This document shows positions 6,800 through 33,906 of a stretch of DNA of 35,997 bases, one piece after another. Origin of the DNA: Treponemataceae bacterium (GTDB lineage Bacteria; Spirochaetota; Spirochaetia; Treponematales; Treponemataceae); NCBI GenBank assembly GCA_024680915.1, contig JAILBN010000094.1:1-35997 (forward strand). The letters run 5' to 3'. Under the pieces are notes generated by a model. It ran no database searches and was not told the origin of the DNA. It saw only the letters and a list, made by a program, of their open reading frames with translations. Within the stretch, counting starts at the first letter, position 1. Each line of letters begins with the position of its first letter. The translations under genes and the position numbers were made by a program.

Positions 6800-6810
6800 G
6801 TTTCCTCCAA

Positions 6811-6834
6811 AGATGTTAGCTAATGCTAACATCT
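6811..6834 (-). promoter_or_regulatory. Regulon operator A (GTTAG-N6-CTAAC) upstream of the HMA gene
   Basis: AGATGTTAGC (6811-6820) and GCTAACATCT (6825-6834) are perfect 10-bp arms around TAAT. It sits between the ABC gene end (6863) and the Shine-Dalgarno sequence of the HMA gene. A minus-strand TTGACA at 6837-6842 with TAACAT 18 bp downstream could be a promoter overlapped by the operator. The same palindrome recurs at 10439, 11940, 20617, 24548 and 29007. Confidence 0.75.
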
Positions 6835-10438: not shown

Positions 10439-10454
10439 GTTAGCTATCACTAAC
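10439..10454 (-). promoter_or_regulatory. Regulon operator B upstream of ABC pair 1
   Basis: GTTAG-CTATCA-CTAAC. It begins 10 bp downstream of the -10 box and ends just before the Shine-Dalgarno sequence, so a bound protein would block initiation or early elongation. Confidence 0.8.
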
Positions 10455-11405: not shown

Positions 11406-11924
11406 TTACCTCTCTTTATAGAATCTCCTGGTAATAACGCCTATAAGCTTCTGAGCCAAGCGTAAATTTACAAATACCCCTGCCATTCCCATACAAATGA
11501 AAGCAACTGTATACAAAGAGGGAGCCTCTATTGCCTTAAGGCATTTACAAATGATCAGGGTGTTTATGGGTAAGCAGATAATACTGGTTATTGAGGATGG
11601 AATATACTTTCTATAAATGCTCACCTGTACAAGATGAACAAAAAAATGGAAATCACAGCCCAGGAAGGCTCCCAACCAAATATACCACAGCCAGTCATAA
11701 TCAAGGAAATTCGCAAGAAAGCATATAATGACACACAAAATCAATTCCTCATAAACAGCCACGGCAAAGCCTTCCGTTGAGAAGTCTTTATATCTACGGG
11801 CCAAACGAGGAAAAAGCTCTTCTATCTCATCCTTATTTTTTTTAAGAAAGAAATTGAAGCCAACAATCTCTTCCATTTCATGAAACATAAAAATAACTGG
11901 AAACAACCAGACAAAAGGTCTCAT
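11406..11924 (-). CDS. HXXEE-domain membrane protein of unknown function
   Basis: About 172 residues with four to five hydrophobic helices. Near the N-terminus lies FHEMEEIVGFNFF, the H-x-x-E-E motif that names the HXXEE family; its function is not established, though the His/Glu pattern could bind a metal. A second conserved-looking stretch is GCDFHFFVHLVQ. I prefer the ATG at 11924 to the one four codons upstream because GGAG lies 6 nt before it. Its promoter region holds the best DtxR/IdeR-like box of the window (11941-11959), so it is probably iron- or metal-regulated. It is a monocistronic gene convergent with mntP. A metal-related membrane function is inferred only from regulation. Confidence 0.82.
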   Translation of the reverse strand: MRPFVWLFPVIFMFHEMEEIVGFNFFLKKNKDEIEELFPRLARRYKDFSTEGFAVAVYEELILCVIICFLANFLDYDWLWYIWLGAFLGCDFHFFVHLVQVSIYRKYIPSSITSIICLPINTLIICKCLKAIEAPSLYTVAFICMGMAGVFVNLRLAQKLIGVITRRFYKER

Positions 11925-11939
11925 AAGCAGCTCCATATA

Positions 11940-11959
11940 GTTAGCTTAGGCTAACCTAA
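11940..11959 (-). promoter_or_regulatory. Regulon operator C, near-perfect DtxR/IdeR-type box
   Basis: Contains GTTAG-CTTAGG-CTAAC (11940-11955). The 19-mer TTAGCTTAGGCTAACCTAA (11941-11959) matches the known consensus TTAGGTTAGSCTAACCTAA at 18 of 19 positions. It begins 4 bp downstream of the predicted -10 box. Confidence 0.8.
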
Positions 11960-16237: not shown

Positions 16238-17710
16238 CTAAGCCTGGCTTAGCAGATTATAAGCCTTCAAATCGATGACTTCATCGCAGCATTCTTGTAT
16301 AAGCTCCCTGTCATGGGTCACGACGATGACCGTTTTTCCCATAGACTTAAGCTGCCTGAGTATTTTTCCTATCTGCTGCATATGGGTATAATCAAGACCG
16401 CTGGTGGGTTCATCAAAAAGCATGAATTCCCGGCCACTGGCAATTGCGCAGGCAACAGCCACACGCTGCTTCTGGCCTCCGGAAAGAGACATAGGATGTC
16501 TGTCCGTAAGGTCTGATAAATCCAGTGTGGCAAGAATGCTACGGGCTTCCTCTTCATCTGCCTTCGGCTGGCTGATGAGGACTTCATCAAGCACGCTTTC
16601 CGAGAACAACTGGTGATTCACATCCTGCATTACAAGATAGAAGAGCTGCTGCCGGGCCCGGTGCTTATAAGCTTTCCCTTTATAAACTACAGTTCCCTTA
16701 GAATGAGGTAAAAGTCCGCATATACAATTCAAGAAAGTGGTCTTTCCCTCCCCGTTCTTTCCTATGATTGCGGTGATTACTCCTGAAGGAATATCCATAC
16801 TTGGGATATTCAAGGCTTGGTAACCATTTTTATATTTGTAGCGGAAATTCTGAAGGCTGATAGGGTTATTCTCCCTATTCTCAGCTGCAGGGCTTGTCCC
16901 AGCTTCCTTATTTTTCAGTAGGCGGCTATCCACCACTGAGTTTTTATTAGTCCGAAGACCAAGGGCATGGAGCTCATCCTCACCAATATTATCCATATCG
17001 GAGCGGGAAAGTTCCTTTGCTATCTGTCCACCGTCAAGGATAATCGTACGGTCCGCAAGGCTCCAAAGGTAGGAAATACGATGCTCAGCGACCACAATAG
17101 TCTTTCCTTCTCCCTTCCATTTAGCCAAAAGCTCCTGGAGCTCATCGATGGTTTTCAAGTCAAGATTGGCACTCGGCTCATCAAGAAGAATCACCTTGTT
17201 CCTAGAAACTGCGACAGAGGCACAGGCTATCTTTTGTTTCTGGCCCCCACTCAGGCAAAAAAGGCTTCTGTTCATAAGTGGCTCCAGCTTCAAATCCCTG
17301 ACTGTCTCATCTATACGCTTCAAGATCTCATTCTCTGGCATACCACGGTTCTCACAGGCGAAGGCCAGCTCGCTTGTGGTATCCACATTAAAAAACTGAG
17401 AGCGGGGATTCTGAAAGACCGTACTGACAAGCTTGGCCGTGTCATACAGCTCTGCATGGGAAATGTTCTTTCCCTCCACAAGAACCTTTCCCTCAAGCTT
17501 TCCACTATAAAAATTAGGGATAAGGCCATTTATCAAACGAAGGATGGTGGTCTTCCCGCAACCGGAGCCTCCTGTCAAAAGAATAAATTCCCCATCCTTT
17601 ATCGAAATATCTATATTTTTCAGGCTGCCATTTGAAGTGACTTCTACAACTTCGTCATTATCAGCATTTCCTGCTACATAACAGAAGGACACATTTTTCA
17701 GTTCAATCAT
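16238..17710 (-). CDS. ECF transporter ATPase, two fused ATP-binding domains
   Basis: 490 residues made of two CbiO/EcfA-type ATPase domains in one chain. The first has Walker A GGSGCGKTT (47-55), signature LSGGQKQK and Walker B VILLDEPS. The second has GKNGEGKTT (317-325), LSGGQKQR and MLFDEPTSGLD. A Ser/Asn/Glu-rich linker (about 250-285) joins them. It drives the energy-coupling-factor importer together with the EcfT and S components upstream. Its ATG overlaps the stop of the EamA gene (ATGA, 17707-17710). It is the last gene of the operon starting at 20595. A 15-bp palindrome, CTAAGCC-T-GGCTTAG (16238-16252), covers its stop codon. The following 176 bp to 16061 hold no gene and no clear terminator. 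Confidence 0.92.
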   Translation of the reverse strand: MIELKNVSFCYVAGNADNDEVVEVTSNGSLKNIDISIKDGEFILLTGGSGCGKTTILRLINGLIPNFYSGKLEGKVLVEGKNISHAELYDTAKLVSTVFQNPRSQFFNVDTTSELAFACENRGMPENEILKRIDETVRDLKLEPLMNRSLFCLSGGQKQKIACASVAVSRNKVILLDEPSANLDLKTIDELQELLAKWKGEGKTIVVAEHRISYLWSLADRTIILDGGQIAKELSRSDMDNIGEDELHALGLRTNKNSVVDSRLLKNKEAGTSPAAENRENNPISLQNFRYKYKNGYQALNIPSMDIPSGVITAIIGKNGEGKTTFLNCICGLLPHSKGTVVYKGKAYKHRARQQLFYLVMQDVNHQLFSESVLDEVLISQPKADEEEARSILATLDLSDLTDRHPMSLSGGQKQRVAVACAIASGREFMLFDEPTSGLDYTHMQQIGKILRQLKSMGKTVIVVTHDRELIQECCDEVIDLKAYNLLSQA

Positions 17711-18669
17711 TTAACAAACTTCTCCTTTTCCAAGGTATCAGCAACAACAAAATAGGTTCCTAGAATCATAATCAAGAGGGCAAGCAAAAACTGCCAGGTC
17801 AATTTTTCACCCACAAAGACAAAGGACAAAAAAGAGCCCACAAAGGGTGCAACAGCATAGAAGGCGCTGGTCTTAGCCGCCCCCAAATCCCTTTGAGCCC
17901 TGACATAAGTGAAAATACTTAATCCATAGGCAACAAAGCCTAAAAGAAGAACCAGGGGTATAAAGGCAGGAACAAAGACCAAGGCTTGCTCCTGTCCTGC
18001 TTTCTGAAGGCTTGTCTCTAATCCAGCTGTGCTTTTTGACAGGGCAGCGAATTCTCCAGAAATAAAGGCCACAAGCATAGAGCCAAAGCCACTTCCCAGC
18101 CCCTTGATTGTGACTATCTGGTATGTACTTTTCTCTGAGATACGTCTGGTGCAATTGTTTTCCAGCCCCCAACAGACTGTAGCTCCAAGAACAAAAAGAG
18201 AGCCAATAGATAAAGAAAAGCTTTCCGCAGACTCAAAGGAGAGAATAATACTTGCGGCTGTAATGAAAAGTATGGCAGACCATAACCGCCCGCTTACCTT
18301 CTCCTTGAAGATGGCAAGAGCTATTAGGGTGGTGGCGACAATCTCAAAATTTCCAAGAAGAGAAACCTCAGAGGAATTGCCCTTTCTTATTCCCAGCATC
18401 AGGAGTATGGGAGCTATAACATCAAGGGCAACCATGAGGATGGCATAAGGAAGATCAGCTTTTGAAAGCCTTTCCTCTTTTGCCTCCTTTTTGATTTTGA
18501 AGAGGTAGAAAAATCCCACACCAAGACCAGCCCCCAGATACAAAAGACCTGCCATAGTCACAGGAGGAATTTTCTGCATGAGCAGCTTTGAGAAGGGTAC
18601 ATTCAAAGCATAAAAGACCGCCGCCAGGAATGCATATATAATCGCTTTAATTTTCTTACTGTCAGACAT
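17707..18669 (-). CDS. EamA/DMT-family transporter inside the ECF operon
   Basis: 320 residues with about ten hydrophobic helices in two repeats, each with EamA features (AFLAAVFYALNVPFSKLL at the start, PFVGSFLSFVFVGEKLTW in the second half). The family contains exporters and importers of amino acids, metabolites and nucleotide sugars. The gene starts 9 bp after the EcfT stop and overlaps the ATPase start by 4 bp, so it is made with the ECF system. Placement between EcfT and EcfA is unusual. It may export the ligand, or a breakdown product, after the metal is removed, but this is inference. Confidence 0.88.
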   Translation of the reverse strand: MSDSKKIKAIIYAFLAAVFYALNVPFSKLLMQKIPPVTMAGLLYLGAGLGVGFFYLFKIKKEAKEERLSKADLPYAILMVALDVIAPILLMLGIRKGNSSEVSLLGNFEIVATTLIALAIFKEKVSGRLWSAILFITAASIILSFESAESFSLSIGSLFVLGATVCWGLENNCTRRISEKSTYQIVTIKGLGSGFGSMLVAFISGEFAALSKSTAGLETSLQKAGQEQALVFVPAFIPLVLLLGFVAYGLSIFTYVRAQRDLGAAKTSAFYAVAPFVGSFLSFVFVGEKLTWQFLLALLIMILGTYFVVADTLEKEKFVK

Positions 18670-18678
18670 ATTGATATT

Positions 18679-19404
18679 TTATATCACTTTAAAAGCACCA
18701 AGAATAGTAAAAGCAAGGCCTCCGGCCAAAAGCAAGAGCACAATAAAATCTGCCCAACCAAAACCAATTTTGCAAATGTTTGTACGTTTGTCAGGCCCGC
18801 CAAGTCCCCGGGTAAGGCTGGCGGCAGAAAGCTCCTGTCCTATCCTCACAGAGCAGGTAATCATTGGTATCAAACGGTATTCAATCATTTTGAAGGCCTT
18901 CTTTCCTCCGAACTTTATATCCCTCATAGCCATAGCTTTATTAATGCTGGAAGCCTCTTCAGCAACGGTGGGGAAAAACCTGAACATTACCGAAAGCGGT
19001 ATGGTAACCTGCTGGGGAATGTGCATTCTCTCCATGGCACAAACGAACTCGCTGACCGTAGTGGTAGAAACCACATACAGGCCTGTGAGGATTCCCGGCA
19101 GGAAGCGTAGTACAATTCCCATAAAGGCAAGTAGAAGAAAACCTAGAGTACCATGAATATAAGGTGCCACGAAGAACTGTAGAAGATACCCAATGGAATA
19201 TAGGATAAAGCCCTTCAGAAAGCTTTTGATACGTCCCGAAAGCAACAGCAGTATAAGAGGAATATAATTCAAGACATAACGGAATTCCATTGCATGCTCT
19301 CCCCCTGCGTTACCAAGAACAAAGATAGAGACAAAGGTAAGCAGAAGCATTTTTGTACGCGGATCAAGCAAAGATTTTTTGGAAGTAGATTTCATCAGCT
19401 CCAT
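18679..19404 (-). CDS. ECF transporter T component (CbiQ/EcfT family)
   Basis: 241 residues, about five membrane helices. It is the scaffold that couples ATPase movement to the S component. The two short Arg motifs of the coupling helices are visible as AMAMRDIKFGG (about 154-165) and AASLTRGLGG (about 202-211). The N-terminus KSLLDPRTKMLLL is typical of the family. Third gene of the operon after two S components. SD AGAGG lies upstream of the chosen ATG. Confidence 0.9.
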   Translation of the reverse strand: MELMKSTSKKSLLDPRTKMLLLTFVSIFVLGNAGGEHAMEFRYVLNYIPLILLLLSGRIKSFLKGFILYSIGYLLQFFVAPYIHGTLGFLLLAFMGIVLRFLPGILTGLYVVSTTTVSEFVCAMERMHIPQQVTIPLSVMFRFFPTVAEEASSINKAMAMRDIKFGGKKAFKMIEYRLIPMITCSVRIGQELSAASLTRGLGGPDKRTNICKIGFGWADFIVLLLLAGGLAFTILGAFKVI

Positions 19405-19429
19405 TTTTACATTCCTCTAAGAGAAAAAA

Positions 19430-20011
19430 CTAAACTATACCGGCCTTGGCAAAATGCTTTTTCAGTATTGTCCGTCCAAGAAGTCCGCCCAGAAGTCCGA
19501 AAACGAAACAGGAAACAAGCAGAATAGGACACATCCAGAGGGGAAGCAGCCTGCCGATTGCCTGTACATACTCTTCACTGAAGGAGCGGGTTGAAAAATA
19601 GGCTTCAGGAGAAAAGAACAATGGAAGATAATTGCTCCAAACCCAGATAGAGAAAACAGCGTTTGTAAGCACTGCTTTTTTTGCACTTTTGTATTGCCCT
19701 CTTTTATAGATCAGTTCAGAAATAAGGCCTGTAATAGACCCGACAATCAGAGCATAAAAGGACATTCCTGTTAAAATCATCAGAATGCCCAGCAGAATGC
19801 TCATAATCAAAATCATTCCGAATTTCTTTACCTTCGTCAGAAAGAGCATAAAAACAATTCCCGAGATAAGTGGAATAAAAACTGTATACAGGGGTAAGAA
19901 AACCGGGATAAAGCCAAGCATGAAAACACCAATGGATGCAAGACAATAAATTGCGGTAAAGATTCCCACATTGATTAAATCTTTACCATTTATCCTTTTT
20001 GTGTTGTCCAT
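19430..20011 (-). CDS. Trep_Strep-family ECF substrate-binding (S) component, copy 2
   Basis: 193 residues, about six membrane helices, Trep_Strep integral membrane family. The N-terminus INGKDLINVGIFTAIYC and C-terminus ILKKHFAKAGIV are nearly the same as in the adjacent copy 1, showing a tandem duplication. Differences gather in the middle, where S components bind substrate, so the two may take different ligands. Its ATG overlaps the copy 1 stop by one base (TAATG at 20011). Trep_Strep proteins occur beside CbiQ and CbiO genes, and in some streptococci such clusters are linked to iron-siderophore or heme uptake (from memory of the family, not proven here). Confidence 0.88.
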   Translation of the reverse strand: MDNTKRINGKDLINVGIFTAIYCLASIGVFMLGFIPVFLPLYTVFIPLISGIVFMLFLTKVKKFGMILIMSILLGILMILTGMSFYALIVGSITGLISELIYKRGQYKSAKKAVLTNAVFSIWVWSNYLPLFFSPEAYFSTRSFSEEYVQAIGRLLPLWMCPILLVSCFVFGLLGGLLGRTILKKHFAKAGIV

Positions 20012-20595
20012 TATACAATACCAGCCTTTGCAAAATGCTTTTTCAGAATCTTAAGACCTAGCCAGCCGCCTAAAATACCACCGATAAAGCAGGCAACAAA
20101 AAGAACAGGACACATCCACATGGGCATAAGGCTCTGAAGCTTTGTGATATATTCTTCTCCAAATTCCTGTCTGGTTGACCAGTATTGTTCAGGACAGAAA
20201 AAAAGAGGGAAATAGTTTGTCCAAACCCAGATAGAGAAAACGCCGTGAGCAAGAACAGCCTTTTTAGCACTCTTGTATTCGCCACTCTTATAAATAAATT
20301 CAGCTATCAAACCTGCAACAGTTCCAAGAGCAAGAGCATACCAGGACATACCTGTAAGCCACATAATAATTCCCATGAGCACACTCATAAGAAGAATCAT
20401 TCCGAACTTCTTTACCTTTGTAAGATAAAGCATGAAAACAATTCCACCAAAAAGTGGCATGAGGATTGAAAAAAGCGGCATAAAAATTGGAACATAGCCA
20501 AGCATAGCCAGGGCCATAATTACGACTGTGTAGATTGCGGTAAAAACACCTACATTGATCAGGTCCTTACCTTTTAACTTTTTGGAACTATCCAT
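20011..20595 (-). CDS. Trep_Strep-family ECF substrate-binding (S) component, copy 1
   Basis: 194 residues, about six membrane helices. Features shared with copy 2: KLKGKDLINVGVFTAIY at the start, LTKVKKFGMILLMSVLMGI in the middle, YKSGEYKSAKKAVLAHGVFS and the end ILKKHFAKAGIV. First gene of the five-gene ECF operon (S-S-T-EamA-A). The ATG has AAAGGAGAG upstream and lies 21 bp downstream of the regulon operator D. The predicted job is to capture the ECF substrate in the membrane; metal chelate or heme is favoured by the operator. Confidence 0.9.
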   Translation of the reverse strand: MDSSKKLKGKDLINVGVFTAIYTVVIMALAMLGYVPIFMPLFSILMPLFGGIVFMLYLTKVKKFGMILLMSVLMGIIMWLTGMSWYALALGTVAGLIAEFIYKSGEYKSAKKAVLAHGVFSIWVWTNYFPLFFCPEQYWSTRQEFGEEYITKLQSLMPMWMCPVLFVACFIGGILGGWLGLKILKKHFAKAGIV

Positions 20596-20610: not shown

Positions 20611-20638
20611 ATTATAGTTAGTCTTTGCTAACTATAAT
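20611..20638 (-). promoter_or_regulatory. Regulon operator D upstream of the ECF operon
   Basis: ATTATAGTTAG (20611-20621) and CTAACTATAAT (20628-20638) are perfect 11-bp arms around TCTTTG, the longest copy of the palindrome. Confidence 0.82.
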
Positions 20639-20719: not shown

Positions 20720-23700
20720 TTAAGTAAGAGTAAGCTTGAGAAAAGCCTGCAGCTTCTGGAAAAGCTCCTTCTCTTCATTTCCGTCAAACTGGGCACAAAA
20801 GCAAGGAAGAGAGGCTTTTCCCTTCATGTTCAGAATGGTCTGAGCATTTTCATAAACAGAAGAAAGCTCAATAATGGCCCGGAGCTTTTCAGAGACATAG
20901 CATCGCCTAGCAAAACGATAACGTATATTAGCACCCACCAGCAAAGGACAGCTTGAATCCGCAAGCCGCCTTATTTTTTTAAGATCAGGCAGCTCTTTGC
21001 TGATTCTGTTTATTCTTTTACGGGCAAGACCTAATTCAGCCCGCCCTACTTTACTTTTATCCCGGATTCTGTCCTGCCAAAGGAAAAGCATATATTCCCT
21101 AAGGGAAGACAATCGGTAGTAAAAAGGCAATTCCTTAATATATTCGAAGAAAGCTCCCCTTATACCCTTATTTAAATAGATTAGTGGATCTCCGGTAATA
21201 AGAATATAAGAGTCTTTTTCACCTTCATATTCCTCCTTATGACTGAATTCCTTCTCAAAAGCCTCATCTGTCTTGGCAAGAACCTGCCAGAAGGCCTGGA
21301 ATTCCCTGTCCTGAGCAAAAATAAGCTCCTCTATCTTCGGAGCAATAATCACAATATCATCCCGGCCAAGCATATTCAGCTTAGACCTGATTACCATGGC
21401 ATAAAAACCATCGCTTTCACCACCTTCTGTCTGGAACAAAAGCAGCTGCTTTATTTCAGAAGATTTCGGATTGTCCCTTGCAAATTTCAAAACATCGCCC
21501 AAGAGGGCAATAAAGCTTACATATTCCTTGGAAGTAGTATTATCCTTTCCTATAGCAAGGCTTTCCTCATTTGTGGGAGGAAGCAGAAAAGCCTTATATC
21601 CCTGTTTTTCCAGTGTCTTGCAAAGATACTCCACAAGCTTGTCGTAAGAAGGGATATAGAGGGGATATTCTTTCTTGACTTGACCAAGGCTCTCATAAAC
21701 GAGATTTACAGGCAAGGGAGCCCTCTTCTTTTCATTTTGAATTTTATTAAGATTGAGGAGGAAGGCCTCGATTCTTGTAATCAGCCCCACCTTCGAATAA
21801 TGCTCGTCAACCTCAATCTGAAGATAAGGCTTGTCTCCCATAATCTCCGCAAAAAGATGATTCACCATTGCATCAGGACCACAGCCATGATTAGTCAGAT
21901 AGAGGGCATAAAGATTAGGAGTATTCTTTATAATCTGAGCCCCGCTTAGGATGTGCTGGCTGAAGGGCCAGTAGAGGTTCTTATAATATTCAGAAATATT
22001 AACATCATGTCCCTCAAGGTTCCCCAAGGTAATGATCTTGCAGCCCCTTTCAAGCAGAAGCTGGGGAAGGCCCATGTTGAGCACAGAATCAATAAGGCCA
22101 TAAGTCCTGGTAATAAGAACAAGAACCTTATCCTGGGAGGAGACTCTTTGCAGGAACTTCTTGCCATCTTCCTCCTGTAATTTCTGAGCTTTTTTCAGGG
22201 CCATCCCTGATTTTACAAGAGCCCTCTGACAGAGCAAGGGATTTTTTTCAAGGCTGAGGCCTATTTTCAGCATAGTCTTAGCCATATGGGGAGCTCCCAT
22301 ATCCATCTGAAGTACAGGATTTATAAGCTTAACGCCTTTTTTTTCCAGTTCAAGATTCTCAGCAATACAAGAAACCGCAGTCTGCATATAAAGGCAGCCA
22401 TAATTGTTTTTCAAATTGGAATTCTTATGCATAAGGCTATAGACAGAAGGAAGGAAAATATAATCACAGCCTTCCTCCAACAGCTCCTGGATATGCCCAT
22501 AAATCAACTTGACGGGAAAGCATGTTTCTTCCTTTACCAGCTGCTGGCTTTTTCTCACTGTTTCCTCACAGCTCTCTCCTGAAAGCTTCACATTGAAGCC
22601 CAGGCTGGTAAAGTAGGTATAGGCAAAGGGGAAAAGCTTATAAATCATCAGGGAACGGGGAATTCCTATCGTTTTTTTGCCCGGGTTATGCTCTCCTGTA
22701 TAAAGTCCGAAGGTTGTCTTCTGGATATTGTCAAAAAGCTTTTTATTCAGCTCCAAGATTTCCTTGTCCACCTCTTTTTTTTGGAGCTTCCGGCTTTCCT
22801 CCTTTGCCAGAAGAGCCATTCCCAAGGCTCCTGTCACACTAAAGTAAGGGGTGATGGAAAAAGCCTGGCCGAAATAGGATTTAAAAGCCGCAACAATTCC
22901 CTGATTGTAGGCGAGACCACCCTGAAAGCAGATTTTTTTCCCTATTTTTTTATTTGCCACCACCTTGTGGAGATAATTGTTTACAACGGCATAACAGAGT
23001 CCAGCCGCAACATCTTCCAAGGCTTGGCCCAAGGCAAGCTTGTTTTCTATACTGGTCTTCATAAAAACAGTACAACGCTGCTCCAGCAAGGAAGGAGACT
23101 CAGACCTCAAGGCCAGTTGACCAAGTTCAGAAGCAGTCATGCCCAGAAGCTCAGCCTGATCTTCAACAAAGGAACCGGTTCCAGCGGAACAAACCTTATT
23201 CATAGTAAAGTCTGTCACAATGCCGTTTTTACAGCTGATGAACTTTGCGTCCTGTCCTCCGATCTCAAATATAGTATCGCAATCAGGCACGAGGAAAAGC
23301 GTCCCCTGGGACTGGGCTGTAATCTCATCATGGACGAACTGTATATTAAATTTTTCAGCAATATGAATTCTTCCGGAGCCTGTAACCCCGGAGCTGACTA
23401 TATTGAGTTTGCCGAACCGTTTTTCAAGGGAATCAAAGCCTCTCTTAACGGCAGAGGTAGTATTTCCCAGAGTCTTAAAATACTGAATATCCACCACCTC
23501 ATTTTTCTCGTTCAAGAGAACAAAATTCGTACTGGTAGACCCCACATCAATACCAAGATAAAGAGCTTCACTGGCTGAAAAAGGAGTCAATGGATGAAGG
23601 TTTTCTGAAGGATAATCATTTTTCAGGGGAGCAAGCTTCACAGAGCCCTTCAGAACAGGTGCCTTTCCATCAATCCTCTCTTTTCCTTTCTCAAGCAGAT

Positions 23701-24505
23701 AAGCTTCCATAGTCTTCCAGGAACGCTTATTCTCAAGAGCAAAAAGACTGCATCCAAAGGCTTGAAGTATGGAGCTTTCTGGGCCATAAATAAAATCAGA
23801 ATCCTCAAGAGCAAGTATATCCTTGAAGGCAGCTATAAGGCCAGCATTCTTACTGCAGGCCCCGGCCAAAAGCAGCGGCTTCTCGATAGGAAGATGCTGT
23901 ATAATTGTTCCCTTGAAATTATTCACAACGGAATAAGCAAGCCCCTTGAGGATATTCTCAACCCTTTCGCCTTCCTGCTGAAGATGGATTATATCTGTCT
24001 TTGCAAAAACCGAGCAGCGACCGGCAATCCTGGGAATAGAATCCGCTTTCTCGACAAAAGCTGAATAATCCTCTATTTTCGTTCCAAGGCGGGCGATTTG
24101 TTCCTCAAAAAAAGAGCCTGTCCCTGATGCACAGTTTTTATTGGCTGAAAGCTGGATGGAAGCGCTTTTTAGTCCGGCAATGAATTGTGAATTCTGACTC
24201 CCAATTTCTGCAATGGAGGCAGCTTGAGGATAAAGAGCCCTGGCTCCCTTCACAAGGCATTCCGTTTGGTTTTCTTCCTTGGGGGAAAACAAAGAGGCAA
24301 AAGCACCAGAAGCAGCCGCATAAATAATATTACTTTTTATTTCAGGCTCCAGTTCAGACAAAAGACTTTTATAAGTATCCAGAATTTTGTTTTTATGAAG
24401 CTTATAAGCAGAATATATAAGCTTTTTATTTGTATCTGCCACAGCTATCTTAACAGAAGCGTTACCAGCATCTATTCCTATACTAAAAGGTCCTTCCAAT
24501 GTCAT
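20720..24505 (-). CDS. Double activase plus 2-hydroxyacyl-CoA dehydratase-like protein (BadF/BcrA + DUF2229 type)
   Basis: 1261 residues, soluble. Residues 1-255 and 315-570 are two BadF/BcrA/HgdC-type activase domains, ATPases that bridge a [4Fe-4S] cluster and pump an electron to very low potential. The cluster cysteines are present in both: Cys125 (NCASGTGS) and Cys164, Cys439 (CSAGTGS) and Cys478. Phosphate loops are GIDAGNAS (10-17) and GIDVGSTS (318-325). The second has the canonical FEIGGQDAKF (413-422); in the first this is degenerate (AEIGSQNSQF). Residues about 610-840 are the DUF2229 region with ETCFPVKL (Cys662), and about 840-1000 is a dehydratase-subunit-like part with NHGCGPD (Cys875). 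The remainder is unassigned. No acyl-CoA pathway genes are nearby. The promoter region carries the regulon operator, so a reductive step in iron-chelate, heme or corrinoid use is a possible role. Confidence 0.9.
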   Translation of the reverse strand: MTLEGPFSIGIDAGNASVKIAVADTNKKLIYSAYKLHKNKILDTYKSLLSELEPEIKSNIIYAAASGAFASLFSPKEENQTECLVKGARALYPQAASIAEIGSQNSQFIAGLKSASIQLSANKNCASGTGSFFEEQIARLGTKIEDYSAFVEKADSIPRIAGRCSVFAKTDIIHLQQEGERVENILKGLAYSVVNNFKGTIIQHLPIEKPLLLAGACSKNAGLIAAFKDILALEDSDFIYGPESSILQAFGCSLFALENKRSWKTMEAYLLEKGKERIDGKAPVLKGSVKLAPLKNDYPSENLHPLTPFSASEALYLGIDVGSTSTNFVLLNEKNEVVDIQYFKTLGNTTSAVKRGFDSLEKRFGKLNIVSSGVTGSGRIHIAEKFNIQFVHDEITAQSQGTLFLVPDCDTIFEIGGQDAKFISCKNGIVTDFTMNKVCSAGTGSFVEDQAELLGMTASELGQLALRSESPSLLEQRCTVFMKTSIENKLALGQALEDVAAGLCYAVVNNYLHKVVANKKIGKKICFQGGLAYNQGIVAAFKSYFGQAFSITPYFSVTGALGMALLAKEESRKLQKKEVDKEILELNKKLFDNIQKTTFGLYTGEHNPGKKTIGIPRSLMIYKLFPFAYTYFTSLGFNVKLSGESCEETVRKSQQLVKEETCFPVKLIYGHIQELLEEGCDYIFLPSVYSLMHKNSNLKNNYGCLYMQTAVSCIAENLELEKKGVKLINPVLQMDMGAPHMAKTMLKIGLSLEKNPLLCQRALVKSGMALKKAQKLQEEDGKKFLQRVSSQDKVLVLITRTYGLIDSVLNMGLPQLLLERGCKIITLGNLEGHDVNISEYYKNLYWPFSQHILSGAQIIKNTPNLYALYLTNHGCGPDAMVNHLFAEIMGDKPYLQIEVDEHYSKVGLITRIEAFLLNLNKIQNEKKRAPLPVNLVYESLGQVKKEYPLYIPSYDKLVEYLCKTLEKQGYKAFLLPPTNEESLAIGKDNTTSKEYVSFIALLGDVLKFARDNPKSSEIKQLLLFQTEGGESDGFYAMVIRSKLNMLGRDDIVIIAPKIEELIFAQDREFQAFWQVLAKTDEAFEKEFSHKEEYEGEKDSYILITGDPLIYLNKGIRGAFFEYIKELPFYYRLSSLREYMLFLWQDRIRDKSKVGRAELGLARKRINRISKELPDLKKIRRLADSSCPLLVGANIRYRFARRCYVSEKLRAIIELSSVYENAQTILNMKGKASLPCFCAQFDGNEEKELFQKLQAFLKLTLT

Positions 24506-24544: not shown

Positions 24545-24581
24545 AAAGTTAGCCTTTACTAACTTTCTATTTTAGGTTAGC
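24545..24581. promoter_or_regulatory. Regulon operator E between the activase and crp genes
   Basis: AAAGTTAG (24545-24552) and CTAACTTT (24559-24566) around CCTTTA. A further half-site TTAGGTTAGC lies at 24572-24581. It is placed to control both divergent genes. A weak minus-strand -10, TAAAAT (24569-24574), sits 5 bp from it. Confidence 0.75.
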
Positions 24582-24600: not shown

Positions 24601-24616
24601 TGTTGCCATGGCAACA
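24601..24616. promoter_or_regulatory. 16-bp palindrome spanning the crp start codon
   Basis: TGTTGCC-AT-GGCAACA is a perfect palindrome; the ATG at 24608 lies in its centre. No Shine-Dalgarno sequence precedes it. It may be an autoregulatory operator or an mRNA structure that hides the start. Confidence 0.55.
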
Positions 24617-25309
24617 AAAATTATTTTTATGGAAGAAGATTGTTATTTAAATTTAGACCAGCTCTCAAGCTGCAAGCTTTTTGAGAGGATTCCTGCGGAG
24701 GAGCTCCCCAAAGCCCTTCAAAGCTTAGCCGCCTATAAGAAAAAATACAGAGCCGGAGAAAGCGTCTATACACCAGGAGCACAAGCCCTGCTCCCCGGTC
24801 TTGTCCTAGAAGGTGCTATCCATATACATCAGATTTTTCCTGATGGAAGCACCCTTTTCTTAAGAACAGTGAAAAAAGGAGAGCTCTTTGGTTTTTCAAT
24901 GACCTTAGGTCTTGATGAAAATATTTACGCCGACTGCTCTATCGATTCTGAAATTTTATTTATGCATTTAAGGCCAAGAAACGATGGAGATAATAGAGAT
25001 AATAAACACAGGCTTATTATTCTGGAAAACCTTGTTTATATACTGGCACGAAACAATATAATTCTTAACAAAAAAATCCAGATTCTATCCCGCACAAGTC
25101 TTCGTCAAAAGCTGGTTCTTTTTCTTTCCCAGCAAGAAAGCTTACAAAAGAAAAAGGAAGTCAAGCTGGGAATGACAAGGGAAGAAATAGCCCAATATAT
25201 AAATGCAGACCGTAGTGCAGTCTCCCGGGAACTGAACAGAATGCAAAAGGACGGACTTATAAAGATAAAGAATAAGTCCGTCCTTATAATTAATCTCAGG
25301 GATAATTAA
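24608..25309 (+). CDS. Crp/Fnr-family transcriptional regulator
   Basis: 233 residues. The N-terminal cyclic-nucleotide-binding-like barrel (about 15-130) has KLFERIPAEELPKALQSLA, AGESVYTPG and LFLRTVKKGELFGFS. The canonical cAMP-binding residues are not evident, so the signal is unknown. The C-terminal winged helix has TREEIAQYINADRSAVSREL as the HTH, with Arg-Ser-x-x-Ser-Arg at the DNA-reading positions. No Fnr-type cysteine cluster is seen. The start is uncertain: ATG 24608 lacks a Shine-Dalgarno sequence, and a second ATG (24629) is in frame. It is divergent from the activase gene over the shared operator E. The 5-6-5 layout of GTTAG-N6-CTAAC is like Crp operators, so this protein is one candidate regulator of the whole set. 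Confidence 0.9.
   Translation: MATKIIFMEEDCYLNLDQLSSCKLFERIPAEELPKALQSLAAYKKKYRAGESVYTPGAQALLPGLVLEGAIHIHQIFPDGSTLFLRTVKKGELFGFSMTLGLDENIYADCSIDSEILFMHLRPRNDGDNRDNKHRLIILENLVYILARNNIILNKKIQILSRTSLRQKLVLFLSQQESLQKKKEVKLGMTREEIAQYINADRSAVSRELNRMQKDGLIKIKNKSVLIINLRDN
25247..25285. terminator. 14-bp perfect hairpin in the crp 3' coding end, probable terminator for the convergent ABC operon
   Basis: AAGGACGGACTTAT (25247-25260) and ATAAGTCCGTCCTT (25272-25285) with an 11-nt loop. Read on the minus strand its 3' arm ends in a run of four T, as for an intrinsic terminator of the ABC operon whose stop is at 25313. On the plus strand the tail is poor in T. Only 3 bp separate the two stop codons. Confidence 0.7.
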
Positions 25310-25312
25310 TTT

Positions 25313-27121
25313 TTAACTATTCTGTTTATTTACCATAGTCGCATACTGACCGCCCTTGGCCATCAGCTCTTTATGATTACCACTTTCTACTATCTGCCCA
25401 TTTTTAATTACAAGAATCTTATCCGCATTACGTATGGTATTTAAGCGGTGAGCAATAACAATCAGGGTCTTGCCCCGACAGAGCTCAGAAATCGCTTCCT
25501 GAATGAAGTGCTCATTATCAGCATCAACACTGGCGGTAGCCTCGTCAAGAATTACGATGGGAGCATCCTTAAGCATACAGCGGGCAATAGAGATTCTCTG
25601 CTGCTCTCCGCCTGAAAGGCTGGCCCCACCCTCTCCTATCACGGTGTCGAAGCCCTGAGGCAGCTGCATGATGAAGTCATAGCAACGGGCCTTTTTCGCT
25701 ACATCAATAACCTCTTCCCGAGTGGCATCTGTTTTTCCCATGGCTATATTGTTGAAGATAGTATCCTGGAAAAGATAGACTCTCTGGAAAACCATGGAGA
25801 TATTATCCATAAGATTTGCTACAGGCACCTCCCGGATATCCTTTCCGCGGATTTTTATACTGCCTTCCTTCACATCCCAGAAACGGGCAAGAAGGTTAGC
25901 GATGGTAGATTTACCGCCACCGCTGGGTCCTACTAGGGCCAGCATCTGTCCCTTCTCCACGTCAAAAGATATATCCTTCAGGGCATTGCGTTCATCACTT
26001 CTCTCATCATTACCCAGTGGGCTCTTCGAAGAGGCTCCACCATAAGAGAAGGTCACATTCTCATAGGAAATCTCAGGCAGGGCTTTTCCATCGGCAGCCC
26101 TGGCAACCTGACTTTCAGGAGGCAGCTGATCAGTACCCTGGCTTTCCATCTCTGCCTCATCGAAAACGCTCTCAATTCTGTCCAGACAGGCATTGGTAAC
26201 TGTAAGACGGGCAATCTGGGAATAATAAGACTTGATTCCGATAAAGGTATCGAAGAGGAAGAGGATCATACCCACCATGTAGACATTGCTGATGACTCCC
26301 TTTTTCATAAGCCATGCAGCAAGAAAAAGAATGATTGTAGAACCTATTCCATAAGTCAGCAGAAGTGCTGCAGACCAAGGAGAATAATCCTTCTCAAAGG
26401 AAATACTGTCCTCGCAGCTCTTCTCAAACTGACCTGTCAGCTCTTTGGATTTCTCACCCATCATATTATAGGTTTTTATGATTCCGATTCCCTCGGCGAA
26501 TTCCAAGACAGCTGAGGTAAGAGACTGGGCGCATTCCTGTTTTTGGACAGAATGGCGGAGGGTATTTCCCATCATAAGACGGCCAAGAATCAGGAAGACA
26601 AGGACCACCACGCAAGCAGCAAGGCCAAGTCTCCAGTCCAGATAGAACATGAAGGCTACCATCATAAGCTGAGAAATCATGAAGCTCACCAGCATCTCAA
26701 GGACACCCATACAGTTCTCTTCGATAAAGTTCATGTCAGTGGAAAGAACGGAGCTGACCTTACCGATGTTCCCGTCCGTGAAGTAGCCCATGGAAAGCTT
26801 ACGGAAATGATCACCCAGCTCCATCCTCTTATCCGCGAAAACCATAAAGCCAGCCGCGGACTGAAGCCTGTCCGAAGCATTCTGCAGCACAGCCTGAAGA
26901 GCAACGAAAACAAGGAGGGCAAGACCATAAAGCAGGCAGGTCTTAGTGGTCATATTGCCGGCCATAAAGCCCGAAACCATAAAGAAACAGAGCATGAGGG
27001 GAGCCTTCATGAACATGCCCTTGAAAAAGCCGGTGACATAGGAGGCCCGGATTCTTGACTTATATTTACCGCAGGACTCCACCAGGCGGTGCATCATACT
27101 TATCATTGATTTATATTTCAT
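25313..27121 (-). CDS. ABC exporter-fold half-transporter, partner B of pair 2 (YbtQ/IrtB-like)
   Basis: 602 residues: membrane domain (about 25-315) and ATPase domain with Walker A GPSGGGKST (398-406), LSGGEQQ (a variant of LSGGERQ) and IVILDEATASVD. Paralogous to the 582-residue partner of pair 1: the motifs GYFxxxxxGDI/GKVxS, GEGGASLSGGE and QHVYLF/QRVYLF-DTI correspond. A short Ser/Asp/Glu insertion (about 361-378) follows the first ATPase strand. It overlaps the upstream gene in TGATG at 27121. Expected to form a heterodimer with it; substrate unknown, iron chelate or heme import favoured by regulation. Confidence 0.88.
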   Translation of the reverse strand: MKYKSMISMMHRLVESCGKYKSRIRASYVTGFFKGMFMKAPLMLCFFMVSGFMAGNMTTKTCLLYGLALLVFVALQAVLQNASDRLQSAAGFMVFADKRMELGDHFRKLSMGYFTDGNIGKVSSVLSTDMNFIEENCMGVLEMLVSFMISQLMMVAFMFYLDWRLGLAACVVVLVFLILGRLMMGNTLRHSVQKQECAQSLTSAVLEFAEGIGIIKTYNMMGEKSKELTGQFEKSCEDSISFEKDYSPWSAALLLTYGIGSTIILFLAAWLMKKGVISNVYMVGMILFLFDTFIGIKSYYSQIARLTVTNACLDRIESVFDEAEMESQGTDQLPPESQVARAADGKALPEISYENVTFSYGGASSKSPLGNDERSDERNALKDISFDVEKGQMLALVGPSGGGKSTIANLLARFWDVKEGSIKIRGKDIREVPVANLMDNISMVFQRVYLFQDTIFNNIAMGKTDATREEVIDVAKKARCYDFIMQLPQGFDTVIGEGGASLSGGEQQRISIARCMLKDAPIVILDEATASVDADNEHFIQEAISELCRGKTLIVIAHRLNTIRNADKILVIKNGQIVESGNHKELMAKGGQYATMVNKQNS

Positions 27122-28953
27122 CAGTTAATCCTCCACTCAGCGGCAGCAGTAGTCGCCTTCCACAGGGTCTGATACTCCTCAGAGGATTTTATCAATTCCT
27201 CGTGATTACCCTGGGCAATTACATTACCGGCCTTGAGCACGCAGATTTTATCCGCATTTTTGATTGAAGAAAGCCTGTGAGCAATGACGATTACAGTTTT
27301 ATCCTTGATTATCTCATTGATTGCAGCGTTCATCTTCTCTTCATTCTCAGGATCCATAAAAGCCGTTGCTTCATCCAAAACTATTACCGGTGCGTTTTTC
27401 AAAATTGCCCTGGCAAGAGATATACGCTGACGCTCACCACCGGAAAGCTGCTTGCCGCTGTCTCCGGCCATAGTATCAATACCCTTTGGGAAGCGGGCAA
27501 GGAACTCATTACACTGAGCCCTGCAGGCGGCATCCAGAACTTCTTCCCTGGTGGCATCAGGCCGGCCTATGAGGATATTCTCATAAAGGGATGTATTGAA
27601 AAGGAACTGCTCCTGGGCCACATAGGAAATCTGATTGTTCAGGGCTTCCAGCGACATGTCTGTAATATCCTGGCCGCCCAAGGAGATGCTTCCTCCATCC
27701 ACATCATAAAAATGCACAAGAAGCCTTGCCAGTGTTGACTTACCACTTCCAGACTCACCTATAAGAGCTGTGGTGGTTCCTTGCTTCATGGTCAGGTTTA
27801 TGCCGTGAAGCACCTGGAGATTCTTAGCTCCGGCCTTGTCTGATCCCTGGCTGCCGGCCGGATCCTGAGTCTCAGAGCCCTGGCTTGACTGCTGTTCAGG
27901 AGCGGCCCCGGACTCCGGCTCACCTTTATTGTATGCGAATTCAACGTTCTTGAACTCGATATCGTAGCCCTTGCCCTCAAAGCCGTGGGTCCCCTGCTTT
28001 ACAGGCTCGTGCTTCATCATTTTTTCCAGCTCTGCGATTTTATAATTCAACTGAGGGATTTTTCCACCAAAGTTCAGGGCATGCAAAAGAGCAGGTCCAA
28101 TGGCAAAGGACATACACAAAACCAGGATCAGCTGACTAAGACTTACAACCCCGGTCAGGACGAGAATGCCTCCAAAGGGTAATGTAAAGAGAGCAAAGCA
28201 AGGTGTTACGCTGTTGTAAACCGCCATCCAAGGCCAGCAGACCCTATACCAGTCCAGGGTGAAATCACGATAAGCCCGGACAGCCTCACCGAAGCGGCGG
28301 AAGGAATCACCGTCCTTGTTAAAGACCTTGATAGCCTCCATTCCGTTCACATACTCAATAATAGTGTTGTTCATTTTTTTCGCGGAGTCGTAATAAGCTC
28401 CCATCTTTGCCATTCCAGCCTTCATCATCATGGACATACCGAAAACCCCGAAGGGCAAGGTGGCAATGGTAAGAAGAGCCAGCCGCCAGTCCACGAAAAA
28501 GAGGGCGATGATCACTATGATCGGAATAGCAAGATTCGCGATTCCCTCTGGTATAGCATGGGCAAGGAGAAGCTCAATCTGATCTATGTCATCGGTGAAA
28601 ACCCTCTTCAACTGACCTGTACCATACTCCTTGATATTTCCCAGGGGCTGATTCTCCAGCTTTCTCTGAAGGGCAATACGGATATTTTTCAAGGTGTTGT
28701 AAGCACTGATATGTGAGAAAACAAGGCCTCTTGTGTAAAGAATACCATACAGCACCTCACACAAAAGAATAAGGCCGACACGTATAAGAATAAAATCAAA
28801 ATCTAAGGCCTGTCCCGTAGTCAAGGGCTCAAGCAACTGATACAAAAACAAATACGGAAGCACACTGGCGATAATTCCAAGACTTGCAAGCAGAGCCGCA
28901 ATCACCGTGTACTTCTTATACTTCCCCATATAGGGAGCTACAGCAGAAACCAT
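27121..28953 (-). CDS. ABC exporter-fold half-transporter, partner A of pair 2 (YbtP/IrtA-like)
   Basis: 610 residues: membrane domain (about 15-300) and ATPase domain with Walker A GESGSGKST (399-407), LSGGERQ and VIVLDEATAFMDPENE. Between the first two ATPase strands is a 35-residue Gln/Ser/Gly/Pro-rich low-complexity insertion (about 344-378), longer than in pair 1. The start ATG has AAGGAGG 5 nt upstream. Operator F lies about 54-69 bp upstream of the start codon. First gene of a two-gene operon with the 602-residue partner. Role as for pair 1; two copies may serve different chelates. Confidence 0.88.
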   Translation of the reverse strand: MVSAVAPYMGKYKKYTVIAALLASLGIIASVLPYLFLYQLLEPLTTGQALDFDFILIRVGLILLCEVLYGILYTRGLVFSHISAYNTLKNIRIALQRKLENQPLGNIKEYGTGQLKRVFTDDIDQIELLLAHAIPEGIANLAIPIIVIIALFFVDWRLALLTIATLPFGVFGMSMMMKAGMAKMGAYYDSAKKMNNTIIEYVNGMEAIKVFNKDGDSFRRFGEAVRAYRDFTLDWYRVCWPWMAVYNSVTPCFALFTLPFGGILVLTGVVSLSQLILVLCMSFAIGPALLHALNFGGKIPQLNYKIAELEKMMKHEPVKQGTHGFEGKGYDIEFKNVEFAYNKGEPESGAAPEQQSSQGSETQDPAGSQGSDKAGAKNLQVLHGINLTMKQGTTTALIGESGSGKSTLARLLVHFYDVDGGSISLGGQDITDMSLEALNNQISYVAQEQFLFNTSLYENILIGRPDATREEVLDAACRAQCNEFLARFPKGIDTMAGDSGKQLSGGERQRISLARAILKNAPVIVLDEATAFMDPENEEKMNAAINEIIKDKTVIVIAHRLSSIKNADKICVLKAGNVIAQGNHEELIKSSEEYQTLWKATTAAAEWRIN

Positions 28954-29005: not shown

Positions 29006-29038
29006 AGTTAGCCTACACTAACTAATATAAGGAGTATA
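29006..29038 (-). promoter_or_regulatory. Regulon operator F and -10 box upstream of ABC pair 2
   Basis: AGTTAG-CCTACA-CTAACT (29006-29023). A minus-strand TATACT (29033-29038) lies 10 bp upstream of the core as a likely -10; the -35 is weak. The stretch upstream resembles the ECF promoter (shared AAATCAAG-CAAAG/GAAAG). Confidence 0.78.
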
Positions 29039-31107: not shown

Positions 31108-32064
31108 TTATGCTTTCAACGAAAATTTCTTAGGTGAAATTCCGAATTTTTTTTGGAATTCCTTAGAAAAATGACTCATATTAGTGTATCCGCTTTTTAT
31201 CGCAGCCTCTGAAATATTAACGCCTCCATCCACAAGTATGGAGGCCGCTTTCTCCAACCTTTTGTTCTGGACATAACGATGCAGGGAAGTACCGTATAAA
31301 GAACGGAAAAGCCGGGTCATCTTGCTCTCGCTCATGGATAAATCCTTGGCTATGTCACAAGCCCGGTATTCCTCCTGAGGAAAAAACTGAATGCGGCGAC
31401 GAAGTGATTCCAATCTTTTGATATCATCCTGGCAAACATTCATAAAAGCTTTGCAGGGGCTATATTCTGTCTTATTGTATGAAATACCGTAAAGAACCAT
31501 TGCTATAAGCTCAATCATCTTTCCCTCTACAAAAACACCCTTGAATTCCTGATATTTCTCAGAGCTGTCTATTTCAGAAAGAACACGGTACATATCCTTT
31601 GTTATCAAGGTTTTTGTCACGTGGGTCAGGAAAAAGGATTTGCAGGTCTCTATCTGATCAGAGGGGAAATATTTGATAAGAAGCTCCTCAAAATAAGAGG
31701 TACTCATCTGAAGGCTTTTGAACAAAAACTCAACGGAGGGGCTATAATTCATGGAAGTCTGGTAATCATTATTCCTGAATACACAGACTTCTCCAGGCAT
31801 CATGTTTACAACTTCACGACCACCGTCTATCTGCCATTCTATAGTCTGATTCAGGTTGAAAATAAGCTGTATCTCGTCCTTGCCGAAATTATCAGGACGC
31901 ATAGCAAAAATCTCTTTTTTGAAATTAAGATTCCAGTCGTAATAGGTTATTTTGTCCCTGCATCTCTGACTAAGAAGAACAAGCTCCCCCACATCATCAG
32001 GAAGCTTCATTGTACCATCAATTATCCTTCCTAAAGAAATATTACACATATCAGGTATCCTCAT
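31108..32064 (-). CDS. AraC-family transcriptional regulator
   Basis: 318 residues. The C-terminal AraC DNA-binding domain (about 225-315) shows both helix-turn-helix units: ACDIAKDLSMSESKMTRLF and ISEAAIKSGYTNMSHFSKEF, ending KKFGISPKKF. The N-terminal part (IQLIFNLNQTIEWQIDGG ... MMPGEVCVFR) resembles the sensor half of PchR/YbtA-type regulators that respond to siderophores; this is a suggestion from pattern only. It has GGGGA before the ATG. A degenerate copy of the regulon palindrome lies about 125 bp upstream. It stands between the GGDEF gene and the CydDC-like operon on the same strand, with its own gap on both sides. A local activator of one of the ABC operons is a reasonable guess. 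Confidence 0.88.
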   Translation of the reverse strand: MRIPDMCNISLGRIIDGTMKLPDDVGELVLLSQRCRDKITYYDWNLNFKKEIFAMRPDNFGKDEIQLIFNLNQTIEWQIDGGREVVNMMPGEVCVFRNNDYQTSMNYSPSVEFLFKSLQMSTSYFEELLIKYFPSDQIETCKSFFLTHVTKTLITKDMYRVLSEIDSSEKYQEFKGVFVEGKMIELIAMVLYGISYNKTEYSPCKAFMNVCQDDIKRLESLRRRIQFFPQEEYRACDIAKDLSMSESKMTRLFRSLYGTSLHRYVQNKRLEKAASILVDGGVNISEAAIKSGYTNMSHFSKEFQKKFGISPKKFSLKA

Positions 32065-32188
32065 TTTTCCCCAAGCATAACCGAAAACCCTATTTTATGA
32101 GTCACCAAGTAGATACAGGTGAGACACAAGAAAAATCCTTTTTTCCGACAATCCTCCTATAAAAGAACGGAAAAAATATCCCCAATCA

Positions 32189-32204
32189 GTTAGCACTGTA
32201 CAAC
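32189..32204 (-). promoter_or_regulatory. Degenerate regulon operator G upstream of araC
   Basis: GTTAG-CACTGT-ACAAC: one perfect half, the other with two mismatches. On the minus strand it lies inside a possible promoter (TTGTAC, 17 bp, GATATT). Confidence 0.35.
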
Positions 32205-32232
32205 TTTTATGAGAAAATGACAATATTACAGA

Positions 32233-33906
32233 CTACTGAAACTGAAATATTTCATCAGCGGAAGCTAGGGTTGATTTTCTGTGAGAAACAAGAACCATGG
32301 TCTTTGAAGAGTCTTTTTCCCTCTCTTCTTTCAGTGACTTAAGGATTACTGCCTCATTGAGAGAATCAAGATTGCTGGTCGGTTCATCAAGCAGCATAAA
32401 GGGTGCGTCATACAGGAAAGCCCTGGCAAGGCCGATTCTTTGCCTTTCCCCGCCGCTGAGACTGCTTCCCAGCTCTCCGGTTTTCGTATCATAGCCCTTG
32501 GGAAGAGAGACCACAAAGTCGTGGAGTGAAGCTTTTTTCGCGGCCTCCTCAACCTGCGCCTGAGTAAAGCAGTCTGCTCCTAGAGAAATATTCTGGGCGA
32601 TCGTTCCATTGAAAATATATGTATCCTGGGTGATATAAGACTGCATTGCCCTAAGATTCTCGGTTCTCAGTGTTTTTATATCTTCTCCGCCTATCCTTAT
32701 ACTACCCTTGTCCACATCCCAGAAACGCATCAAAAGCTTAAGCAGGGTGGATTTTCCGGAACCGCTTTCTCCATGAATACCGATAAGCTTTCCCTTAGAG
32801 AAGGCCGCACTGAAATCCTTAAGAATATCAGCCTTGTCATAGGCAAAGCTCACATTTTCCACCGAGGCACCGTTGAACTCAACTGTCCGTCCCTCAAGAA
32901 GCTCCTCAACCACAGGCTTTTCTTCCAGCAGGTTAAGAACACGGTTCCCACTGGCTATAGTCTGATTCAGATTATTGGAAAGATTTGAAAGGGCAATCAC
33001 AGGACCGAAGGAGCCCATCATAGCCACGCTTCCAAGCACTAGCTCTGGCAACCCTATCCGGCCGGCCGAGAAAGCCTGGAAAAGGAAAAAGAAGTTACCC
33101 ATGCTGAACAAAAGAATAGCCCCGGTGGTAAAGGCTCTCTGCAAAGCCTCGAACCTGTTCAATTCGCCTTGAATGCGGCCCAGATAAGTGGATTTTTCTT
33201 CCATCTGCTTCTGACGCTTTGCTCCGTATCCATACTGTATAGTCTCGTCCAAGCCCCGGAGGGAAGCCAGCACAAAGCTGTTAAGATCCCCGAATTCATT
33301 GCGGAAGGTAAAGCCCCTGGAGGAGCCCAAGCGGCTGTTGACAAGAGGAATCAGAAGTCCTACGACAAGGTAGGCACAGGCGGCTATAAGAGCAGCAGGT
33401 CCATAAAGATTACCCAAAAAGGCACACATTATCACAGAGACAATAAGTGCAATGGCCACAGGTGAAATGGTATGGGCGTAAAAAACCTCCAAAAGCTCTA
33501 TATCACTGGTTATTACGGAAATCAGGTTACCCTTGTCACGGCCTTCCAGCTTTGCAGGGCAAAGACGACGTAAAGCGGCAAAGACCTTGTGGCGTATAAT
33601 GGCAAGCAGCTTGAAGGCAATAAAATGATTGCAATATTGCTCTCCATAATGGAGTATTCCCCTGGAGACAGCAAGAATTATCAGAAGAGGGAAAATAAAA
33701 GCTTTTCCCCAGAAAAGGAAGTCTGTCTGGACAAAGGATACAAGCTCAGCTGCCGCAAAAACCGTAAGAAAGATGGCGCATAAGAAGCCCGCCACACCAA
33801 GAATGATGGCCAGAAGCATAACAGGGAGGAGAGGCTTTATAATAACGATAAGCTTTGCCATTACGACAGGCGCACTTCTACGTTTTTCTCTTTTAGATAT
33901 TTCCAT
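32233..33906 (-). CDS. CydC-like ABC transporter half
   Basis: About 557 residues from the ATG at 33906, chosen because AAGGAG lies 7 nt upstream and because it overlaps the upstream stop by 14 bp; an ATG 50 codons further out falls inside the upstream gene. It has a six-helix membrane domain and an ATPase domain with GESGSGKST, SLSGGERQR and FMLLDEPTSNLD. Order and style fit CydC of the CydDC family, which moves thiols or heme-related compounds across the inner membrane and supports cytochrome bd assembly in other bacteria. No cydAB is visible here, and generic heterodimeric transporters look alike, so the name is tentative. Last gene of the ygbA-cydD-cydC-like operon. Confidence 0.82.
   Translation of the reverse strand: MEISKREKRRSAPVVMAKLIVIIKPLLPVMLLAIILGVAGFLCAIFLTVFAAAELVSFVQTDFLFWGKAFIFPLLIILAVSRGILHYGEQYCNHFIAFKLLAIIRHKVFAALRRLCPAKLEGRDKGNLISVITSDIELLEVFYAHTISPVAIALIVSVIMCAFLGNLYGPAALIAACAYLVVGLLIPLVNSRLGSSRGFTFRNEFGDLNSFVLASLRGLDETIQYGYGAKRQKQMEEKSTYLGRIQGELNRFEALQRAFTTGAILLFSMGNFFFLFQAFSAGRIGLPELVLGSVAMMGSFGPVIALSNLSNNLNQTIASGNRVLNLLEEKPVVEELLEGRTVEFNGASVENVSFAYDKADILKDFSAAFSKGKLIGIHGESGSGKSTLLKLLMRFWDVDKGSIRIGGEDIKTLRTENLRAMQSYITQDTYIFNGTIAQNISLGADCFTQAQVEEAAKKASLHDFVVSLPKGYDTKTGELGSSLSGGERQRIGLARAFLYDAPFMLLDEPTSNLDSLNEAVILKSLKEEREKDSSKTMVLVSHRKSTLASADEIFQFQ

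Follow-up and report, generated by a model that had tools for sequence, protein, structure and literature searches.

A giant activase/DUF2229 protein with an iron-box operator in a Treponemataceae bacterium, and its small clade without the cysteine triad of the second reductase half

We describe here a new four-member clade within the already known family of giant activase/DUF2229 proteins, in which the cluster triad of the second reductase half is missing. One member is encoded in the stretch of 35,997 nucleotides from a Treponemataceae bacterium that we analysed (hereafter the window; Table 1), and an iron-box operator lies at the giant gene, at its operon or adjoining it in all four cases (window, G060, G080 and G270). 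The explanation that we prefer, with a probability of roughly 0.4, is that the giant is a one-chain, ATP-driven, low-potential reductase made in iron starvation, whose substrate would be a metal chelate, or the ligand of one, brought in by a co-regulated importer. Its architecture and regulation are well supported, and the metal-chelate substrate is the part that we infer.

Table 1. Coordinates of the giant gene, its domains and the surrounding features of the window
Feature	Position	Strand	Remarks
Giant double-activase/DUF2229 reductase	20720..24505	-	1261 aa, ATG start; ORF, Pfam, NCBIfam
Activase domain 1, residues ~7-255	23741..24487	-	C125 and C164 kept; alignment of 78 giants
Activase domain 2, residues ~315-570	22796..23563	-	C439 and C478 kept; Pfam best stretch 317-567
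Reductase half 1, residues 607-927, HgdB/HadC/DCCP fold	21725..22687	-	AF2 model, VIA-align, alignment
Reductase half 2, residues 942-1261, homologous to half 1	20723..21682	-	hhalign, VIA-align, alignment
Iron-box palindrome GTTAGCCTTTACTAAC	24548..24563	.	43 bp upstream of giant, 45 bp upstream of divergent CRP-like gene
CRP/FNR-family regulator, divergent from giant	24608..25309	+	Pfam HTH_Crp_2 and cNMP_binding
Iron-box palindrome ahead of Trep_Strep ECF operon	20617..20632	.	
ECF operon	16238..20595	-	five genes
Two Trep_Strep/MptD S components	20011-20595, 19430-20011	-	
CbiQ-like T component	18679-19404	-	
EamA transporter in ECF operon	17707-18669	-	
Double ECF ATPase	16238-17710	-	
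ABC half-transporter pair	25313..28953	-	27121-28953, 25313-27121
Iron box upstream of ABC pair 27121-28953/25313-27121	29007..29022	.	
Iron box at FeoB-associated Cys-rich/HMA gene	6815..6830	.	gene at 6422-6832
Iron box upstream of ABC half-transporter pair	10439..10454	.	pair at 8611-10425/6863-8611
Iron box upstream of HXXEE-motif membrane protein gene	11940..11955	.	gene at 11406-11936

The earlier note on this DNA had recognised a giant double-activase reading frame with all four activase cluster cysteines intact and the architecture of an ATP-driven low-potential reductase, and the domains and fold of the protein bear this out. Pfam placed two BcrAD_BadFG domains (213 bits, cut-off 31.5) and then DUF2229 (180.8 bits, cut-off 29.4) along the chain, and NCBIfam identified the acyl-CoA dehydratase activase domain CoA_E_activ (256 bits). 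The closest solved structure of the activase part was 4eht, the activator of 2-hydroxyisocaproyl-CoA dehydratase (E 3.7e-34), followed by the activases of benzoyl-CoA reductase and DCCP. In an alignment of 78 giants the four cluster cysteines (C125, C164, C439 and C478) were present, which give the fused activase pair one complete [4Fe-4S] ligand set. The GGQD motif of activase domain 2 is intact; the ASKHA nucleotide motif of domain 1 is degenerate, with GSQN in place of GGED at phosphate-2.

The reductase region was examined with an AF2 model of residues 583-1261 (pLDDT 81, pTM 0.86), which in Foldseek matched only chains of benzoyl-CoA reductase (BCR, BzdNO) and DCCP at E<0.001, and on which VIA-align placed HadBC, BzdO and DCCP at residues ~602-922 with Z of about 14-15. 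For half 1 the top ten VIA-align entries were all HadBC, BCR or DCCP (Z 11.5-15.4, with 3o3n_B at 15.4; other rows 7.2 or below). Half 2, modelled alone (pLDDT 74), gave no Foldseek match below E 0.001, and its top ten VIA-align entries were again exclusively HadBC, DCCP or BCR (Z 8.0-11.0, with 3o3n_B and 6eno at 11.0; other rows at most 7.2). A profile comparison by hhalign revealed that the two halves form an internal repeat (probability 96.6, E 6.3e-10), pairing C662, C704 and C875 of half 1 with C995, C1030 and C1219 of half 2 in the family numbering. The repeat and the common HadBC/DCCP/BCR fold indicate that the giant consists of two fused units, an activase pair and a HadBC-like pair. 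Half 1 keeps the triad C662, C704 and C875, a putative three-Cys [4Fe-4S] site. Half 2 has Y995, E1030 and E1219 in its place, residues which, judging from the alignment with the half-1 triad, would converge at one site.

What the earlier note had missed is that half of the cysteines conserved in the family are gone from this protein. The full set of 14 was found in 74 of the 78 aligned giants, among them the common 1471-aa giant of the same genome (C49), which is only 22% identical to the window protein. The four exceptions (window, G060, G080 and G270) retain seven, four in the activases and three in the half-1 triad; missing are the four-Cys insert between activase domain 2 and DUF2229 and the half-2 triad. 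Since the far more distant C49 paralogue has the complete set, the loss must be derived. The triad positions of half 2 read Y, E, E in all four members, although their pairwise identity falls to 40%, and F873, beside C875, has become His and F1032 Asp; the invariant new residues of the clade are H873, Y995, E1030, D1032 and E1219. The four proteins form a single, fully supported clade on a long stem of the tree. A search of 274 genomes of the same family detected close homologues only in G060 (61% identity), G080 (60%) and G270 (42%), and a scan of named species yielded distant homologues only. The retention of 7 of the 14 cysteines by every member marks them as a divergent clade rather than as typical giants.

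The operator GTTAG-N6-CTAAC is present in six exact copies in the window and in 20 in the 3.15-Mb genome, compared with one for the pattern read backwards. An ORF begins no more than about 250 bp downstream of each of the 20 boxes, and for most of them within 90 bp; the extended consensus is TAGTTAGC-N4-GCTAACTA. Taken by itself, the shorter core TAGC-N4-GCTA shows no enrichment (32 versus 44 in the control), which indicates that the flanking bases matter. The boxed genes comprise feoA-feoB, DUF3793-flavodoxin, Fe/Mn superoxide dismutase, a Dps/ferritin-like gene, Trep_Strep ECF operons, ABC half-transporter pairs and the FeoB-associated protein. The operator form resembles the E. coli MntR box (a literature search on this found nothing), and together with the gene content it points to an iron regulon of the DtxR/MntR type. 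The likeliest candidate regulator is a 119-aa protein with both DtxR Pfam domains, encoded next to a feoAB pair (G000:C10:15807); DtxR homologues occur in nearly all genomes examined, so their distribution alone is no proof of this role. The CRP-like protein was also considered, since the spacing of the 16-bp palindrome is CRP-like. From genome to genome, however, the number of sites does not follow the occurrence of CRP homologues, and this candidate was rejected in favour of the DtxR family, a member of which adjoins feoAB.

Boxes also precede genes for a BPG-type phosphoglycerate mutase, an enolase and a xylose-isomerase-like protein (L137:5067, L011:1501, L012:1501; G000:C10, C18, C21), and lie near the enolase and xylose-isomerase-like genes in G087 and near the enolase gene in G005. 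The boxed enolase and phosphoglycerate mutase make manganese a further possibility for the sensed metal. In two genomes a DUF3793-type gene stands directly ahead of the boxed flavodoxin gene (L003:1509-2521; G080:C1:333794-334808, L135), which suggests a role of DUF3793 in iron starvation.

The regulon and the cysteine census bear on the main rival explanation, in which the clade protein is an iron-sparing isoenzyme that catalyses the reaction of the C49 giant with a smaller number of clusters and takes its place under iron shortage, much as flavodoxin replaces ferredoxin. It would account for the loss of 7 of the 14 cluster-type cysteines with retention of the others, for the presence of flavodoxin in the same regulon, and for the box at the clade gene, the C49 giant not being among the 20 boxed genes. 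We regard it as a serious competitor but less likely than the preferred explanation, because the two proteins share so little sequence, because dedicated importer and cupin genes travel with the clade giant (see below), and because the invariant H873, Y995, E1030, D1032 and E1219 point to a new site, not to plain loss.

It had been claimed that the giant has an operator in common with ECF and ABC importers. The motif is real and argues for iron-type co-regulation with metal transporters; however, one copy belongs to the giant and another to the ECF operon. The ABC genes beside the giant are indeed boxed, but they encode MsbA-like half-transporters (NCBIfam), for which import is a putative direction. 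Elsewhere in the window, the boxed gene at 6422-6832 specifies a small protein in which a heavy-metal-associated domain is fused to a Cys-rich, FeoB-associated membrane segment; its translation probably begins at the ATG near 6799, immediately past the box. The region 31108-35969 contains a third pair of ABC half-transporters, accompanied by an AraC-type regulator and a YgbA_NO-domain gene, and has no iron box.

The boxed Trep_Strep ECF operon adjoining the giant could be taken as a sign of anaerobic heme processing, with the ECF system importing heme or porphyrin and the reductase attacking the ring or the iron; staphylococci are known to have such a system for heme. This we consider very improbable, given that neither an ECF gene nor a heme gene lies next to the giant in any of the three close relatives. 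The survey of homologue neighbourhoods proposed in the earlier note thus gave no ECF partner (0/3), but it did uncover an iron box, an NMT1-like ABC importer and a cupin alongside the giant in all three. In G060 and G080 the iron box is followed by the genes for an NMT1-like substrate-binding protein (SBP), permease, ATPase, double-cupin protein and giant, in this order; G080 has in addition a flavodoxin operon that diverges from the giant operon and starts from a separate iron box. In G270 a divergent SBP gene is followed by a CRP-like gene, the iron box, the giant and the cupin.

At the window locus the NMT1-like ABC genes are absent from the vicinity of the giant. The CRP-like protein encoded there is 40% identical to its G270 homologue and 32-40% identical to the CRP-like proteins of NMT1-like ABC modules, and its homologues flank NMT1-like ABC genes elsewhere among related genomes. 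This homology connects the window locus with these modules despite the missing transporter. SBP orthologues (63% or more) were found in ten genomes; where the giant is missing, the modules retain the ABC genes, in most cases together with the CRP-like gene and the cupin, and some sister modules also contain a methyltransferase and a protein with DUF364 ('putative heavy-metal chelation'; PMC2954201). A paralogous module (CRP-like gene, NMT1-like SBP, permease and ATPase) without an iron box lies immediately ahead of a HydE-like radical SAM gene and HydF (L193:6921-12388, G000:C118:39920-45387; also L194, G005:C150), linking such an importer with [FeFe]-hydrogenase maturation. Around typical giants (80 loci) none of the partners found at the close homologues was detected, except for one weak permease match. 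The neighbourhood survey thus gives a divided result: the three close homologues are clear of acyl-CoA genes and have the importer, cupin and iron box but no ECF genes, and the distant ones lack these partners.

The fold common to benzoyl-CoA reductase and HadBC, and an SBP of the NMT1/SsuA group, would also suit a reductive dehydratase, dearomatase or desulfidase acting on an imported aromatic, sulfonated or thio compound, with iron control reflecting only the cofactor or the conditions of use. We find this doubtful. Enzymes with iron cofactors are normally turned down in iron starvation, not kept in an uptake regulon, and no CoA-ligase or catabolic gene is nearby: as the earlier note had it, acyl-CoA genes are missing, and CoA-transferase, CoA-ligase and acyl-CoA pathway genes were detected neither in the window (Pfam, NCBIfam) nor around the three close homologues.

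According to the preferred explanation, a reductase for metal chelates or their ligands, loss of metal by a DtxR/MntR-like repressor would lead to expression of the giant operon. The co-regulated flavodoxin, a plausible electron donor, may reduce the activase cluster, and ATP, bound and hydrolysed probably in activase domain 2 in view of the degenerate motif of domain 1, would drive the electron on to the cluster of half 1, in which the fourth iron may be open to substrate. By analogy with the three-Cys open-iron cluster of BzdO, catalysis likely takes place in half 1, with half 2 as a partner that has no cluster but an acidic/tyrosine site. The regulon and gene partners suggest that the target enters through an importer made in iron starvation, the NMT1-like ABC system in the relatives and possibly the Trep_Strep ECF system at the window locus. 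In the least certain step, reduction of the imported chelate or organic ligand would free iron.

Several observations count against this explanation: the SBP of the giant modules falls in the NMT1/SsuA-like family, for which we know of no iron-chelate cargo, the window copy has no ABC importer beside it, the relatives have no ECF partner, and the clade has only four members. It is conceivable, though rather improbable, that the remodelled site (Tyr995, Glu1030, Asp1032 and Glu1219) holds an imported Fe(III) chelate, or its iron, near the low-potential [4Fe-4S] cluster and strips the iron by a reduction that NAD(P)H or flavodoxin alone could not achieve, which would represent a new type of iron-acquisition enzyme.

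The family of the giant powers some of the hardest reductions in biology, and to our knowledge most ATP-driven reductases of the DCCP/DUF2229 type have no known physiological role; literature searches on DUF2229, on Trep_Strep with iron or heme and on BadF with iron limitation found nothing on function. The regulation and gene partners of the clade point to metal acquisition, and the replacement of a cluster site by invariant oxygen ligands offers a defined structural test. If the explanation is true, iron uptake would be added to the roles of ATP-powered electron transfer of the type known from benzoyl-CoA reductase, possibly where a chelate is too stable for ordinary reductases.

Compared with known systems, the window protein resembles the typical giants (BcrAD_BadFG x2 plus DUF2229; ~1400-1500 aa) in domain order, activase cysteines and half-1 triad at 22-33% identity, whereas its clade has lost 7 of the 14 family cysteines, is ~150-200 aa shorter, and is iron-boxed with importer and cupin partners. 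DCCP with DCCP-R has the same fold (Z ~14 for half 1, 11 for half 2) and an ATP-driven activase partner, but the six-Cys double-cubane [8Fe-9S] site is found in neither half of the giant, half 1 keeping three family cysteines and half 2 none; a double-cubane cofactor was dropped after this cysteine count. HgdAB/HadBC with the activators HgdC/HadI have the activase fold and cluster cysteines in common with the giant, both halves of which match 3o3n_B; in contrast, the giant unites everything in one chain, has no CoA genes nearby and lacks the triad in half 2. Finally, unlike the class I benzoyl-CoA reductases BzdNO/MbdON, the giant has no [8Fe-9S] six-Cys subunit like BzdN and no aromatic-degradation context, but its half 1 displays the three-Cys pattern of BzdO, with two cysteines from the N domain and one from the C domain; in BzdO, these three (Cys95/128/380) are the ligands of a [4Fe-4S] cluster in which one iron is open (PMC11971306).
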